From the IMG/VR virus record IMGVR_UViG_3300017917_000690, positions 1-29,228 of that record: a DNA stretch of 29,228 bases, one strand, 5' to 3'. A program made the translations under genes and the position numbers. How positions within the stretch are numbered: the first letter of the stretch is position 1; every line of letters starts with the position of its first letter. This document shows, piece after piece, positions 5,016 through 24,926 of the stretch. The DNA comes from a virus. The notes beneath the pieces were generated by a model. It was not told the DNA's origin and ran no database searches. It saw only the letters and a program-made list of their open reading frames with translations.

Positions 5016-5044
5016 AAAGGGATCAGCAAATGCTGATCCCTTTT
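5016..5044 (+). terminator. Rho-independent terminator after the capsid gene
   Basis: GGGATCAGC (5019-5027), loop AAAT, GCTGATCCC (5032-5040), then TTTT. Three A-T pairs extend the 9-bp GC-rich stem to 12 bp. It sits 28 bases after the capsid stop, and a new promoter begins right behind it. Confidence 0.85.
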
Positions 5045-5051
5045 CATTTAT

Positions 5052-5061
5052 ATGCTATAAT
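5052..5061 (+). promoter_or_regulatory. Extended -10 promoter ATGCTATAAT, leaderless
   Basis: TG-C-TATAAT ends exactly 6 bases before the ATG at 5068, so RNA would begin on the A of the start codon. No Shine-Dalgarno site lies between the terminator and the ATG. A possible weak -35 (CTGATC, 17-base spacer) falls in the terminator stem. Confidence 0.7.
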
Positions 5062-14492: not shown

Positions 14493-14520
14493 ATAATGGG
14501 TCCGGAAACGGACCCATTAT
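14493..14520 (+). terminator. Terminator-like hairpin after the tail tube gene
   Basis: A perfect 12-bp inverted repeat (14493-14504 and 14509-14520) with a GAAA tetraloop. The following tract is AT-rich (TATGATATAAT) rather than a pure T run and is shared with the next promoter, so termination may be partial. Confidence 0.7.
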
Positions 14521-14521
14521 T

Positions 14522-14531
14522 ATGATATAAT
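14522..14531 (+). promoter_or_regulatory. Extended -10 promoter ATGATATAAT for the tail operon
   Basis: It immediately follows the tail-tube terminator. RNA would begin near 14538, giving a leader of about 21 bases with AAGGAG (14545-14550) before the ATG at 14559. No clear -35. Confidence 0.6.
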
Positions 14532-14558: not shown

Positions 14559-14861
14559 ATGAGTAATGAAGTAAGACGAGGGGTGGATGTTGAGTTCGCA
14601 GATAAGACACGAACAATCTATCCAGTATCATTGAAGCAGTTGAGAAAACTTCGTGGAGCAATGGAAAATATCAATTTTACAGATGATAGTCCATATCCAG
14701 ATGAAGGAACTATTGACGCTATGGTAAAGGCTGCACAGATCGTGCTAGAAAAGGTCGATCCTGAATTGGCAGCCGATTATGAAAGAGTCGAAGATTTAGT
14801 AGACATTAAGGCTTTCAACAGTATGCTTGAAGCCGCAATGGGCGCAGACCCAAACGAGTAG
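14559..14861 (+). CDS. Tail assembly chaperone, short form
   Basis: 100 residues, AAGGAG 8 bases before the ATG. Small beta N-terminus (VDVEFADKTRTIYPVSLKQL) followed by helices (GTIDAMVKAAQIVLEKVDPE), as in gpG-type chaperones that coat the tape measure during tail assembly. The slippery heptamer CCCAAAC (14849-14855) comes just before its stop, and a second ORF in the -1 frame follows. Placement between tail tube and tape measure is diagnostic for this pair. Confidence 0.85.
   Translation: MSNEVRRGVDVEFADKTRTIYPVSLKQLRKLRGAMENINFTDDSPYPDEGTIDAMVKAAQIVLEKVDPELAADYERVEDLVDIKAFNSMLEAAMGADPNE
14849..14855 (+). promoter_or_regulatory. Slippery heptamer for -1 frameshift
   Basis: C CCA AAC in the zero frame, an X-XXY-YYZ site. 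Slipping by -1 moves to CCC AAA and then reads CGA GTA GGC without meeting the TAG at 14859. The -1 frame is open from 14831 to 15212. Confidence 0.8.
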
Positions 14862-15214
14862 GCGGGGGTTCTGAGTCGGGCGTGACATTCGATGACCTCC
14901 CTCTTATTGAATATGAGAGGGAGGTTTTTGCAGAATGCGGGGCCTGGAAGAATTTCATTGATTTGGAAGAATCTCTTAGCCTAGATGAGTTGCTTGAATT
15001 ATATGAAGCGACTATTGAGCGTCAGAATCGACAGATGAAGATGATTGCTGCCGCTTGGGGTGCAGAGATTGACGAATCCCCATCAGAACGAGGTAATTCT
15101 AGACCGGCATATGCTATCGACCCAGCAAAGGGTGGAGAGGCTACGCCGCTATTTGGCGAGCAAGAAGTTGCAAGTTTGCCAATTAATCTAGGATATACTA
15201 AAATGAATGAATAA
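14855..15214 (+). CDS. Tail assembly chaperone, frameshifted extension
   Basis: This -1-frame ORF has no ribosome-binding site before its first possible start (GTG 14882) and is best read as the second half of a fusion. The full product, 99 residues from the first gene plus 119 here, would be about 218 residues, like the gpGT protein of lambda. The extension is helical and acidic (FIDLEESLSLDELLELYEAT; RQNRQMKMIAAAWG), as usual for the T half that binds the tape measure. It ends 24 bases before the tape measure gene. Frameshift efficiency cannot be judged from sequence. Confidence 0.8.
   Translation, partial: RVGGGSESGVTFDDLPLIEYEREVFAECGAWKNFIDLEESLSLDELLELYEATIERQNRQMKMIAAAWGAEIDESPSERGNSRPAYAIDPAKGGEATPLFGEQEVASLPINLGYTKMNE
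14895..14925 (+). other. Strong hairpin followed by a T run inside the chaperone extension
   Basis: ACCTCCCTCT (14895-14904) pairs perfectly with AGAGGGAGGT (14916-14925). Two further A-T pairs and one G-T pair can close the loop to 5 bases, and TTTTT covers 14925-14929. It begins 39 bases after the slippery site. Confidence 0.7.
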
Positions 15215-20696: not shown

Positions 20697-23600
20697 ATGA
20701 TAACAGTTACAGATACATTAGCAGATGCAATAATTGACAACTCACAGTATGTAACTGCATCTATAACAGCACGATTTGCTGACAATAGATATAACGATAA
20801 TATCGTATGGTCTAGTTCATCAGAGTTTTTTGAGAATCAAATTCTCAGAAACTCTCCATTTGTTTATTGGAGATTTGATGATCTTGTTTTTGCTCCTACA
20901 AAAACAGGCGATCTATCTGGAAATGGAATTTACGGAACTCTTACAGACGTTGCATATGCAGAATCAGCCATTCAGAGAATTTACAAGCCAATGGAACTTG
21001 TTTCAGATTCTTTTAACAGGGCAAATAGCACAGATGGTTTAGGCGCTCTTTCGTCAAACTCAAAATATGTATGGAACACAGACCCATTCACAATTTGGGG
21101 AATTGACACAAATGAAGCATATATTGTTGACAAAGACAACTCTTCAAACGCAGATGATCTAAGTTTTGCCTGGATTGATACAAATGGTCCTGATGGATAT
21201 ATTGAATGCACAATTGGTTCTGGAACTATTCCAGACGGATTCGGCCTTGTTTGTAGATATATCGACAGAAATAATTATATTGCATGGAAGTATACCCCTG
21301 GTGTTGGTACGCATTCGATTAGGCAGGTTGTTGACGGAACTGGAACAACACTAGATTTTGCTCTAGGAACATTTACAAATGGTGATGTTGTAAAATTTGA
21401 ATTTGTCAATCAAGAGGTTAAAATATATAAAAATGGAACTTTAACTACTGTTGACACAGTAATAACAGATGATCAATTTTTAACAGCAACAAATCATGGA
21501 ATGTTTATTGAGGCTGGCGTTGCAACATCTGTTGATGCACGCTGGAACTCAATTGAGATTGATACATATGATGTTATAGATTATGCCGGGACATTCAATG
21601 GGACAAGTTCTGTTGTAACGTCAACCACCCTTCCAACCACAATTCCTTATACAGATGATATTACAGTTGGAATGTGGATTAAGCCTACAGATATAAGTGC
21701 TCAATATTATTATGCATCAGAATGGGATGGTATTGCAACTCCAACGTTTGCAATTTTAAATGATGGAAGTAAACTATCATTCTTTCTTACAGATGATCTT
21801 GGAAATACAAATCAGTATGATACTTCTCCTGGCGCTCTACAACTCAATGAATGGTCTTTCTTTGTTGCAACAAAGAAAGATAATTTTGTAACATTATATG
21901 TCAATGGAAGTAGTGTAGGATCATATTATGCAAACTATAGCATATTAAATGATGGTACTGAAATTGCTGTCGGGGCAAATCCTGTTGGCTCAAATTATTC
22001 ATATGGATATATTGATGAGTTCTTCGTTTTAAAATCAGGGCTTACAGATAGACAAGTTGAAATGATGTATAAGTGTGGTTTGAATACAGGAACATTTATA
22101 GGCGCTGGAAAACATTTTACTGCTGATCAGGCTATTAATGGATTTACTGAGGAATCTATCTCATGGGCAGTTCTAGACGGGCTGGATGAGTATGAAAATT
22201 GTATTGTTTCAAATGGTACTTATAAAGTTTTAAATAGCACAGTGGCTGCAAATTCAGAATATGGATGGTGGTCAAGGAGCAAGTCTGCTGCGACATTATT
22301 CACAGATGATGAAATTGCGTGGTTTGAATTTGATGAAAGAAAAGGGAATAAACTTATTGTATCAACTGGATATCTATATGGAAGATTGCAGGATATCAAC
22401 TATTACTATAGATCGGCAGGAGTAATAACTTCTGGAACCGCTTCATTTGCCGAGGGTGAGTCAATTGTCGAGATTGACCTAGGCGCTGATTATGATATTG
22501 ACGGCTTTGGAATAGAGATGGTTTCAACGTGGAACGACTCTGATTATGGAAGAATCTTTGAAGCCGATCTTGTCTATGATGTTGATATAACAGATTATAT
22601 TGTGTCGTTTAACTTTACAAAGTCAAGAGAAAATTACGACTCAACATTGCCAATTGGGCTTACAGCATCTAATACTCTTAATATCACTCTTGATAATACA
22701 GAGTTAACATTTAATGCATTTGGTACAAATACACTCGCTCCATATATTGCTGATGGTACAGAATTCTTTGTAACTCTAGCATGGCAAACAGATGCGGGAG
22801 AAGAGTCTATAAAGGTTGTAGATTCTATGTATGCTGATTCATGGGATATATCTTCCAGCGGAATGACAGTAAGCGTGGATTGTAGAGACTGGTCAAAGTT
22901 TATTCAGGAAACCACAAATGATATTGGGTTTATGATGACAAATTCAACGGTCGGAAGGGCTGTTGATAAGGCGATGAAGTCTGCCGGATTCCCAGCAAGA
23001 AAGATTATATATTATGATACATACTATCATTCACTTGTTACAGATAGACCAATGGCTTTGTGGAGAATGTCAGATACAGATGGAGCGACAGTATCAGATG
23101 AGGGCGGGAACTTTGATGGAACCGCAACAGATATCTCGTTTATAACTCAGGGAGTGCAAAGCATTGTTCCTCAGTATCAGAATGCTCCTGCTTATACAAT
23201 TGATAGAAACAATACATCTATATCTGATCCAGATAGACTACCATTCTATTCAACATCTTTTGATGGAACGGCAGATGGAAGTTATGAAATTCCAACAACA
23301 GCAGAATTAGATATTGAGGGTGATTTTACAATAGAATGTGTTGTTAAATTTGGCATGACACCGGGAGTAAGTGATCCATATTCATTTATAATTGGAAAAC
23401 TAAGCGATGGTGCTGTTGATGGCTATGGAATAACGATGCATTATGTTAGTGCGGATGATAACAGACTTGAGTTTATAGTTGGAACTACTGGTGATGGTGG
23501 TTATATACTTAATAAGGTTTATACAGATGCAGAGGTTTTAGCGCAGCCAACTGTTCATATTGTGGCAAGAAAAAATGGAAGTGACGTTGAGTTATGGGTA

Positions 23601-24926
23601 GACGGGGTTTTGGAAGATTCAGGGATTTTGACTGACCCTGTTGTAGACACAACAACAAACTCACTCGGAATAGGCGCTGTATATACTTCATTGGGTGCTG
23701 CATATGCATGGGTTGGAACTTTAGGTCCAATTACAATGTGGAATAGACCACTCACAGATGCAGAGATAGCAAGACATTATACATCATACATGTTAGAAAA
23801 GATATATGTATTTAATTATCTATTTTTTATCGACTCAACACCTTGGGATGGTATGCTTGAGTTTGCAACAGCAGATGTTGGAATCTTCTATCTTGATGAA
23901 GATGGATACTTCAATTATGAATATGGAAATACATTCCACGAAACAGTCTTTGATAGACATAGAACATCACAGTATACAATAACTGACGAAGAGCATATTA
24001 AGGATGGAAGTTATAATGTTGAGGTACAAGCAAATAGAGTCATCGTAACTGTCAATCCGCTTATCACACTTAACACTGGATATGACAGTGTTTGGCGTGC
24101 CCAGGGTGGCGAATCATTGGCGGTGACAACGCTTACCGCTGATTGTGCAATTGATGCTTTATCAATTGATGTGACCGATACTGAAAATCCATTGTGGCTG
24201 ACGGCGGGGTATCTAAAAATTGATGATGAAATTATAGGATATTCTGGAAAAACTCTTACGTCATTAACTGGACTAACAAGGGGGCTATTCGGAACAAAAG
24301 CAGCCACTCATTCTAACGGAGCATTAGTTAGAGAGACACGTCACTACGAAATAGAGTATAGTAGTAAGCCTGTGGTTGCTGTGAAGTATCCATTCCTCAC
24401 AGCCAAAGAATTCGATATGCAGGCGGATATTGATAAGTTCGTTACTACTCCATTCAAGGCAGAGGTAATTGTTTCAGCGAATGAAACAAATGCTGAGGGA
24501 GACTTGGTAATTCTAGAAGGAAAAAATCCTGTTACAGATATTGAAAACTTCTTTGCAATTGCTGGTATTCCATTGGAGCCAAAGAAGAGTGATGAAAAGG
24601 TTGTTAAGGAAGTAAGAGAAATTTCTGCCGGGATTAAAAGATCAAGACCAAAAGAAATAACAATTGATAATCAGTTCATTCAAGATAAGGCATATGCATC
24701 ACTTCTAGCAGAGTTTATATTGAAATACTTCGGTGTAAAGGTTCCAATTATAACAGTAGAGGTAACAGGAATTCCTCAGTTGCAACTTGGTGATCTTATC
24801 ACCATTGAGAAATTTGAGAAATTGGGGATTTATAATGTTGACTGGTGGGTAATTGAATCATCAATGAATTTTGATGGTGGATTATCACAGACACTAACAC
24901 TAAGGCAGTATACAGAGGGATTATAA
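20697..24926 (+). CDS. Tail hub / tail-tip protein carrying lectin-like domains
   Basis: 1409 residues; GAGGAAC lies about 10 bases before the ATG. Hub segments: about 578-775 (SFNFTKSRENYDSTLPIGL; SGMTVSVDCRDWSKFIQ) and the C-terminus about 1035-1409, which includes a compact beta domain (TAGYLKIDDEIIGYSG ... GLTRGLFGTKAATHSNGALV, about 1141-1216) common in phage hub proteins and a closing strand set with LQLGDLITIEKFEK. Inserted are two LamG/concanavalin-type domains. One begins at 47-88 (FVYWRFDD), is interrupted by another sugar-binding-like domain at 101-288, and resumes at 297-461 (ITVGMWIKP). The other spans about 778-1035 (MALWRMSD; NRPLTDAEIARHYTSY). It would form the tail tip and bind host sugars. 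Enzyme motifs are not evident. Confidence 0.75.
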   Translation: MITVTDTLADAIIDNSQYVTASITARFADNRYNDNIVWSSSSEFFENQILRNSPFVYWRFDDLVFAPTKTGDLSGNGIYGTLTDVAYAESAIQRIYKPMELVSDSFNRANSTDGLGALSSNSKYVWNTDPFTIWGIDTNEAYIVDKDNSSNADDLSFAWIDTNGPDGYIECTIGSGTIPDGFGLVCRYIDRNNYIAWKYTPGVGTHSIRQVVDGTGTTLDFALGTFTNGDVVKFEFVNQEVKIYKNGTLTTVDTVITDDQFLTATNHGMFIEAGVATSVDARWNSIEIDTYDVIDYAGTFNGTSSVVTSTTLPTTIPYTDDITVGMWIKPTDISAQYYYASEWDGIATPTFAILNDGSKLSFFLTDDLGNTNQYDTSPGALQLNEWSFFVATKKDNFVTLYVNGSSVGSYYANYSILNDGTEIAVGANPVGSNYSYGYIDEFFVLKSGLTDRQVEMMYKCGLNTGTFIGAGKHFTADQAINGFTEESISWAVLDGLDEYENCIVSNGTYKVLNSTVAANSEYGWWSRSKSAATLFTDDEIAWFEFDERKGNKLIVSTGYLYGRLQDINYYYRSAGVITSGTASFAEGESIVEIDLGADYDIDGFGIEMVSTWNDSDYGRIFEADLVYDVDITDYIVSFNFTKSRENYDSTLPIGLTASNTLNITLDNTELTFNAFGTNTLAPYIADGTEFFVTLAWQTDAGEESIKVVDSMYADSWDISSSGMTVSVDCRDWSKFIQETTNDIGFMMTNSTVGRAVDKAMKSAGFPARKIIYYDTYYHSLVTDRPMALWRMSDTDGATVSDEGGNFDGTATDISFITQGVQSIVPQYQNAPAYTIDRNNTSISDPDRLPFYSTSFDGTADGSYEIPTTAELDIEGDFTIECVVKFGMTPGVSDPYSFIIGKLSDGAVDGYGITMHYVSADDNRLEFIVGTTGDGGYILNKVYTDAEVLAQPTVHIVARKNGSDVELWVDGVLEDSGILTDPVVDTTTNSLGIGAVYTSLGAAYAWVGTLGPITMWNRPLTDAEIARHYTSYMLEKIYVFNYLFFIDSTPWDGMLEFATADVGIFYLDEDGYFNYEYGNTFHETVFDRHRTSQYTITDEEHIKDGSYNVEVQANRVIVTVNPLITLNTGYDSVWRAQGGESLAVTTLTADCAIDALSIDVTDTENPLWLTAGYLKIDDEIIGYSGKTLTSLTGLTRGLFGTKAATHSNGALVRETRHYEIEYSSKPVVAVKYPFLTAKEFDMQADIDKFVTTPFKAEVIVSANETNAEGDLVILEGKNPVTDIENFFAIAGIPLEPKKSDEKVVKEVREISAGIKRSRPKEITIDNQFIQDKAYASLLAEFILKYFGVKVPIITVEVTGIPQLQLGDLITIEKFEKLGIYNVDWWVIESSMNFDGGLSQTLTLRQYTEGL

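Follow-up and report, generated by a model that had tools for sequence, protein, structure and literature searches.

The stretch of viral DNA analysed here, hereafter the window, comprises 29,228 nucleotides (IMG/VR record IMGVR_UViG_3300017917_000690, positions 1 to 29,228), and all coordinates refer to it. According to PHROG matches, the tail assembly chaperone gene follows a major-tail-protein-like gene and precedes a tape measure gene of 1682 aa, and the same gene order is found in the Streptomyces phages Francob, Wakanda and Circinus. The chaperone ORF shares 31-32% identity with annotated Streptomyces phage tail assembly chaperones (E ~4e-3). Near its end, a slippery heptamer of the X XXY YYZ type lies in the 0 frame within the codons GAC CCA AAC GAG TAG, and a -1 shift would lead into an extension. 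Two hairpins, H1 and H2, and a composite fold are predicted downstream of the heptamer. The features are as follows.

14559..14861, plus strand: ORF of 100 aa, 0-frame product (G-like) of the tail assembly chaperone, with stop codon UAG at 14859-14861
14849..14855, plus strand: slippery heptamer C CCA AAC for -1 frameshifting, located by a frame check
14849..15214, plus strand: -1 frame extension (T-like), obtained by translation and conserved as a protein in relatives
14864..14870, plus strand: 5' strand of H1, GGGGGTT, 8 nt past the heptamer, with extra pairs possible at 14861-14862
14894..14900, plus strand: 3' strand of H1, GACCTCC
14895..14907, plus strand: 5' strand of H2, overlapping the 3' strand of H1
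14913..14925, plus strand: 3' strand of H2, codons GAG AGG GAG GT (Glu-Arg-Glu-Val)
14925..14929, plus strand: T-run, Val-Phe codons GTT TTT
14865..14872, plus strand: base helix of the composite fold, capped by H2 and paired with 14949-14956 in the minimum-energy fold, 9 nt past the heptamer
14949..14956, plus strand: 3' partner of the composite base helix in the minimum-energy fold, not evidently selected

To place the locus among its relatives, IMG/VR was scanned, yielding overlapping sets of 7, 64 and 25 loci. The 64 loci and the window together reduced to 41 distinct stretches, window included, and a script found no in-frame heptamer in three of these (L059, L061 and L068). After duplicates were dropped, the group of the window comprised 17 distinct relatives (L009-L014, L016, L019-L022, L024, L027, L028, L086, L089 and L090), all of which keep an identical CCCAAAC. 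A second clade, also carrying CCCAAAC, was found by DNA pattern search (L073, L074, L076, L077, L079 and L082). A third and more distant set includes Stanwilliamsviridae Streptomyces phages (L056 being BillNye), with CCCAAAT, CCCAAAA or CCCAAAC as heptamer. Pattern scans returned no strain-level near relative of the window, and near records may be absent from the scanned set.

The -1 extension is conserved in two protein alignments (A1 and A2), with 44-63% identity to the window protein across 11 relatives in A2. Neither the extension itself nor, by megablast, the 10 kb around it has a match in the phage collection searched, and the species genome collection gave no match. Pfam gave nothing above the curated cut-off for the 0-frame and extension proteins, and no Rfam family reached its gathering score when the window and six relatives' loci were searched. 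A sub-threshold Rfam match to a miRNA (E 0.55), which covers H2 on the minus strand, was taken as chance. Taken together, we infer from gene position, heptamer, stem and conserved extension that the functional element here is a frameshift cassette, in which ribosomes would shift to the -1 frame.

The initial annotation had singled out a terminator-shaped hairpin at 14895-14929 with a perfect stem of 10 bp, extendable to 13, and a following TTTTT, and both the sequence and an inverted-repeat search bear this out. The hairpin proper spans 14895-14925 and has the loop TGAAT. More specifically, the core of H2 pairs 14895-14904 with 14916-14925 by Watson-Crick pairs throughout, and U-G, A-U and U-A pairs extend it inward to the 5-nt loop, giving 13 pairs in total. 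The inverted-repeat search returns the arms 14895-14907 and 14913-14925 (13 nt, 92% complementary, 5 nt apart), and an additional G-U pair can close the hairpin at 14894/14926. Because position 14925, the first of the T's, is also the last stem partner, four unpaired U's follow the full 13-bp stem, or five if the terminal A-U pair opens.

No other 40-nt segment of the plus strand of the window folds as stably as H2 (-23.1 kcal/mol), with two intergenic hairpins ranking behind it. When the 48-nt H2 stretch was recoded synonymously 20,000 times, no variant was as stable, and among 12 synonymous shuffles of the whole CDS only one contains any more stable 40-nt window. The 39 nt that the annotation had counted between the end of the heptamer (14855) and H2 are confirmed, as is its view that this distance exceeds that of a usual stimulator, so that H2 by itself would not qualify as one. 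The usual spacer of -1 stimulators is 5-9 nt according to PMC5009743. Thus, the hairpin first described is real, unusually strong and terminator-shaped, and it does lie within the -1 extension; what had been overlooked is a nearer stem that shares one of its strands.

This nearer stem, H1, is common to the relatives. In 17/17 window-group relatives, a helix of 5-13 bp begins 3-10 nt past CCCAAAC and ends on Pro-Leu codons; in the window, it begins at 8 nt. Stimulators of -1 frameshifting sit a few nucleotides after the heptamer, which is where H1 of the relatives begins. The sequence GATGACCTCCC of the window, on which the 5' strand of H2 is built, recurs identically in L020, L022, L024 and L027, and in these four relatives it forms the 3' strand of an H1 of 12-13 bp. 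Elsewhere the stem is kept by different bases, such as GGCAG/CTGCC in L021 and GCCAGCGAGG/CTTTGTTGGC in L028.

Synonymous recoding was used to assess whether H1 exceeds what the protein sequence imposes. For the 69-nt H1 stretch, no more than 25 of 500 recodings are as stable in each of the 14 group relatives that this test covered (all but L086, L089 and L090). For the H1 helix alone, at most 20 of 400 recodings are as strong in 14/17 group relatives and in 5/5 members of the second clade, the exceptions being L014 (34/400), L086 (129/400) and L090 (70/400). The two strands also fit each other better than they fit those of other genomes: among 18 sequences, some of them closely related to each other, own strands pair with a mean of -17.0 kcal/mol compared to -14.3 kcal/mol after permutation, and 1 of 20,000 permutations does as well (6/20,000 with 14 representatives). 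Column covariation of H1 is weak in the eight gap-free sequences, with one double-sided change and equal results in 70 of 500 shuffles, which is explained by a pairing register that shifts along the G-runs.

The members of the second clade have a stem of their own at this place. It comprises 13-14 bp, begins 5 nt after CCCAAAC and ends on the Pro-Leu codons in the five members measured (L073, L074, L076, L077 and L082); the extension sequence differs there, and these stems rank among the strongest frameshift stems of the present comparison.

In the window, H1 and H2 are mutually exclusive, because both draw on positions 14894-14900, H1 for its 3' strand and H2 for its 5' strand. When folding energies are followed along the growing RNA, the curves of the two folds intersect once the RNA reaches about 14922-14924, after which H2 wins by several kcal/mol. 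The final energies are -45.8 kcal/mol for the H2 fold vs -30.4 kcal/mol for the H1 fold, and in the full-length fold of the window H1 is displaced by H2. The H1 helix of the window is not above synonymous expectation, with 81 of 400 recodings as strong. Because H1 is weak here and H2 strong in their respective recoding tests, selection in this lineage could have favoured H2.

H2 itself is missing from the relatives. The stretches homologous to H2 in the 17 relatives fold with only -0.5 to -10.3 kcal/mol, compared to -22.7 kcal/mol in the window, and 0/14 group relatives show excess stability downstream in the recoding test. In L089 (same contig as L084), the identical peptide Tyr-Glu-Arg-Glu-Val-Phe is encoded with GAA AGA GAA GTT, and H1 is formed and H2 is not.

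We next consider the resemblance of H2 to a terminator. With the d'Aubenton-Carafa formula, H2 scores 15.8, the highest value in the window, followed by intergenic hairpins at 5018-5041 (13.1) and 14494-14519 (-3.8). None of 300 synonymous shuffles of the whole CDS reaches 15.8. In shape, H2 is a GC-rich hairpin with a U-tract, albeit of five U's of which one pairs with the first A of the stem. It lies inside the CDS and not at the end of a transcription unit, and its absence from all 17 relatives rules out a conserved terminator as a feature of the family. A consensus terminator scan of the window does not list the H2 site, probably because the stem drawn by that tool takes in the first T's. 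The T-run is a consequence of the conserved Val-Phe codons: at least five T's occur at these codons in 11/17 relatives, all of them without H2. On the explanation favoured below, the terminator look of H2 has three sources, namely the C-rich strand inherited from H1, the choice of G-rich synonymous codons facing that strand and the T-run imposed by Val-Phe. The likeness to a transcription terminator is thus probably, though not certainly, fortuitous, and H2 is probably not there for ending transcription, although termination or pausing may occur in this one phage. An ATG at 14935, past the SD-like 3' arm of H2, opens only eight codons in the third frame, as read from the sequence.

The explanation we favour, with confidence that goes about halfway, is that H2, a feature of this lineage, competes with the stem that stimulates frameshifting or replaces it, and is not primarily a terminator. 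H2 would have been built, in the window only, on the inherited 3' strand of H1, with the codons GAG AGG GAG either happening to be or having become complementary to that strand. H1 would be displaced once the RNA extends to about 14924. If H2 is active, it would most likely affect ribosomes at the slip site, either by weakening H1 or by capping the longer composite stem whose base starts at 14865. Three observations go against this explanation: H1 of the window is at synonymous expectation, H2 has the top terminator score and covariation of H1 is weak. Two of the readings below, chance and a relocated stimulator, overlap with this one, which sets no size for the effect of H2, and the probabilities of the readings are therefore not meant to add up to one.

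The most serious alternative, which we consider rather unlikely, is pure chance, with H2 a neutral by-product that affects neither ribosomes nor polymerase. When the 5' strand of H2, the inherited C-rich strand, is held fixed and the remainder recoded, 207 of 20,000 recodings (~1%) are as stable; H2 is moreover present in one genome only, and many features were screened at first reading. Nevertheless, 1% is still small, and the frameshift site is exactly where this hairpin, the strongest plus-strand fold, is found. Because H2 physically competes with H1, a total lack of effect would also be surprising.

A less probable alternative is that selection acted on H2 because it caps the long composite stem (14865-14956), which would replace H1 as the stimulator at the slip site. 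The base of this stem, 9 nt past the heptamer, falls inside the 5-9 nt spacer range given in PMC5009743. The 121-nt fold has a Z of -4.34 relative to shuffles, and the weakness of the window H1 in its own recoding test would fit such a replacement. Recoding the left flank of the composite fold matches its energy in just 10 of 3000 cases, and recoding both flanks in 25 of 3000. Recoding the right flank alone does so in 466 of 3000, however, so the outer 3' half carries no sign of selection, and no relative of the group has a comparable downstream structure. We regard a relocated stimulator as improbable.

The third alternative, to which we give only a small chance, is an attenuator coupled to the reading frame, with H1 as antiterminator and H2 plus the U-run as terminator, so that transcription of the tape measure gene would rise with frameshifting. 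A ribosome stopped at the UAG (14859-14861) would cover the 5' strand of H1, only H2 would form and transcription would end at about 14930; a ribosome at the slip site would leave H1 free, and a shifted ribosome would run over H2. The edges of the ribosome footprint used for this topology are assumed. In the predicted folds, the topology is exact: the two stems exclude each other as antiterminator and terminator would, and when the RNA is masked up to 14871 only H2 forms. The terminator score of H2 is the best in the window, beyond every coding shuffle and comparable to that of the 5018-5041 hairpin. Furthermore, the hairpin between the major tail protein and chaperone genes is strongly terminator-like in most close relatives and has a poor T-tail in the window; yet L014 and L090 have a likewise poor upstream T-tail and lack H2. 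Against such an attenuator stand also the absence of H2 from 17/17 relatives and the T-run, which protein coding explains and which offers only 4-5 U's. A strong terminator would, in addition, cut off the tape measure gene, since most ribosomes would stop in frame 0. If the attenuator were true, transcripts would be cut short ahead of the tape measure gene by frame-0 stops, whereas frameshifted ribosomes would let transcription continue. In the literature covered, which lacks most subscription journals, a paper joining frameshifting with terminators or attenuation was found only on engineered RNAs in mammalian cells, to judge by its abstract, and this is no proof that the idea is unpublished.

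Returning to H2 as a competitor or replacement of the stimulating stem, the locus can be compared with known systems. Attenuators of the trp/phe type use antiterminator and terminator stems under leader-peptide control before genes. The window resembles them in topology only, in that two stems share a strand and the position of the ribosome decides between them; unlike in these attenuators, the site belongs to an extension that only frameshifted ribosomes would translate, and termination is putative. With the lambda-type gpG/gpGT arrangement, as reviewed in PMC5009743, the window shares the gene position, a heptamer shortly before the 0-frame gene ends and the -1 extension; it differs in the stem 3-10 nt past the heptamer in all group relatives, to which the window adds a stronger competing hairpin. 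The heptamer, short spacer and stem-loop are also those of bacterial -1 cassettes such as dnaX and IS elements, as described in PMC5009743, whereas the window has two mutually exclusive stems. In IS3411-like elements, a second stem-loop 44-104 nt 3' pairs with the first (PMC5009743); loop-loop pairing of this type was considered by eye in the window and not established. T7 gene 10 frameshifting involves a terminator sequence whose role is described as unexplained in PMC5009743. As in T7, a terminator-like hairpin in the window is tied to a frameshift site; the T7 terminator, unlike the hairpin of the window, is itself established and lies far downstream of the frameshift site.

Frameshifting in tail assembly chaperone genes is common across the tailed phages, and PMC10274946 gives a count of 2,397 such genes annotated as joined in 3,679 SEA-PHAGES genomes. 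The present comparison adds two related environmental phage clades with a plain, often very strong stem right after CCCAAAC as candidate stimulator. The element itself is of an ordinary kind, and what is unusual about it is local. If H2 proved functional, a single RNA switch would couple the reading frame to the ratio of the chaperone products and to expression of the tape measure gene.

Tandem hairpins were also seen past the slip site of ten relatives (L030, L032, L041, L045, L046, L047, L050, L051, L053 and L062). The first hairpin is robust in all ten, and the second, about 50-110 nt downstream, goes beyond recoding expectation in four. A homologous second hairpin across the Streptomyces-type clade was rejected: 8 of 22 sequences show excess downstream stability (<=25/500), but hairpin 2 itself passes at 5% in only 4 of 15. 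A consensus fold of ten freshwater members contains no hairpin 2 pair changed on both sides. Hairpin 1 passes in 10 of 15 sequences of the Streptomyces-type set, none of the five Streptomyces-like ones among them. In these Streptomyces phages and their kin (L056, L065, L069, L112 and L113), which have CCCAAAT, neither stem is above synonymous expectation, so stimulation may differ there.

Hairpins were also noted elsewhere in the window. Between the major-tail-protein-like and chaperone genes (14493-14531), a perfect 12-bp hairpin is directly followed by an extended -10-like TGATATAAT (14523-14531), a layout suggestive of a promoter-like site that overlaps a terminator. In most close relatives the equivalent place is likewise occupied by a hairpin, with a better T-tail (scores of 16.8-60.4 in L009-L013, L016, L086 and L089), and TGNTATAAT or one-off variants of it occur just past this upstream hairpin in close relatives. 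The same layout recurs at 5016-5060, where a perfect 13-bp intergenic hairpin is followed by a T-rich stretch and an extended -10-like TGCTATAAT. Finally, an inverted repeat of 18 nt, 89% complementary and with no gap between its arms, lies at 21850-21885 inside the long ORF at 20697-24926.
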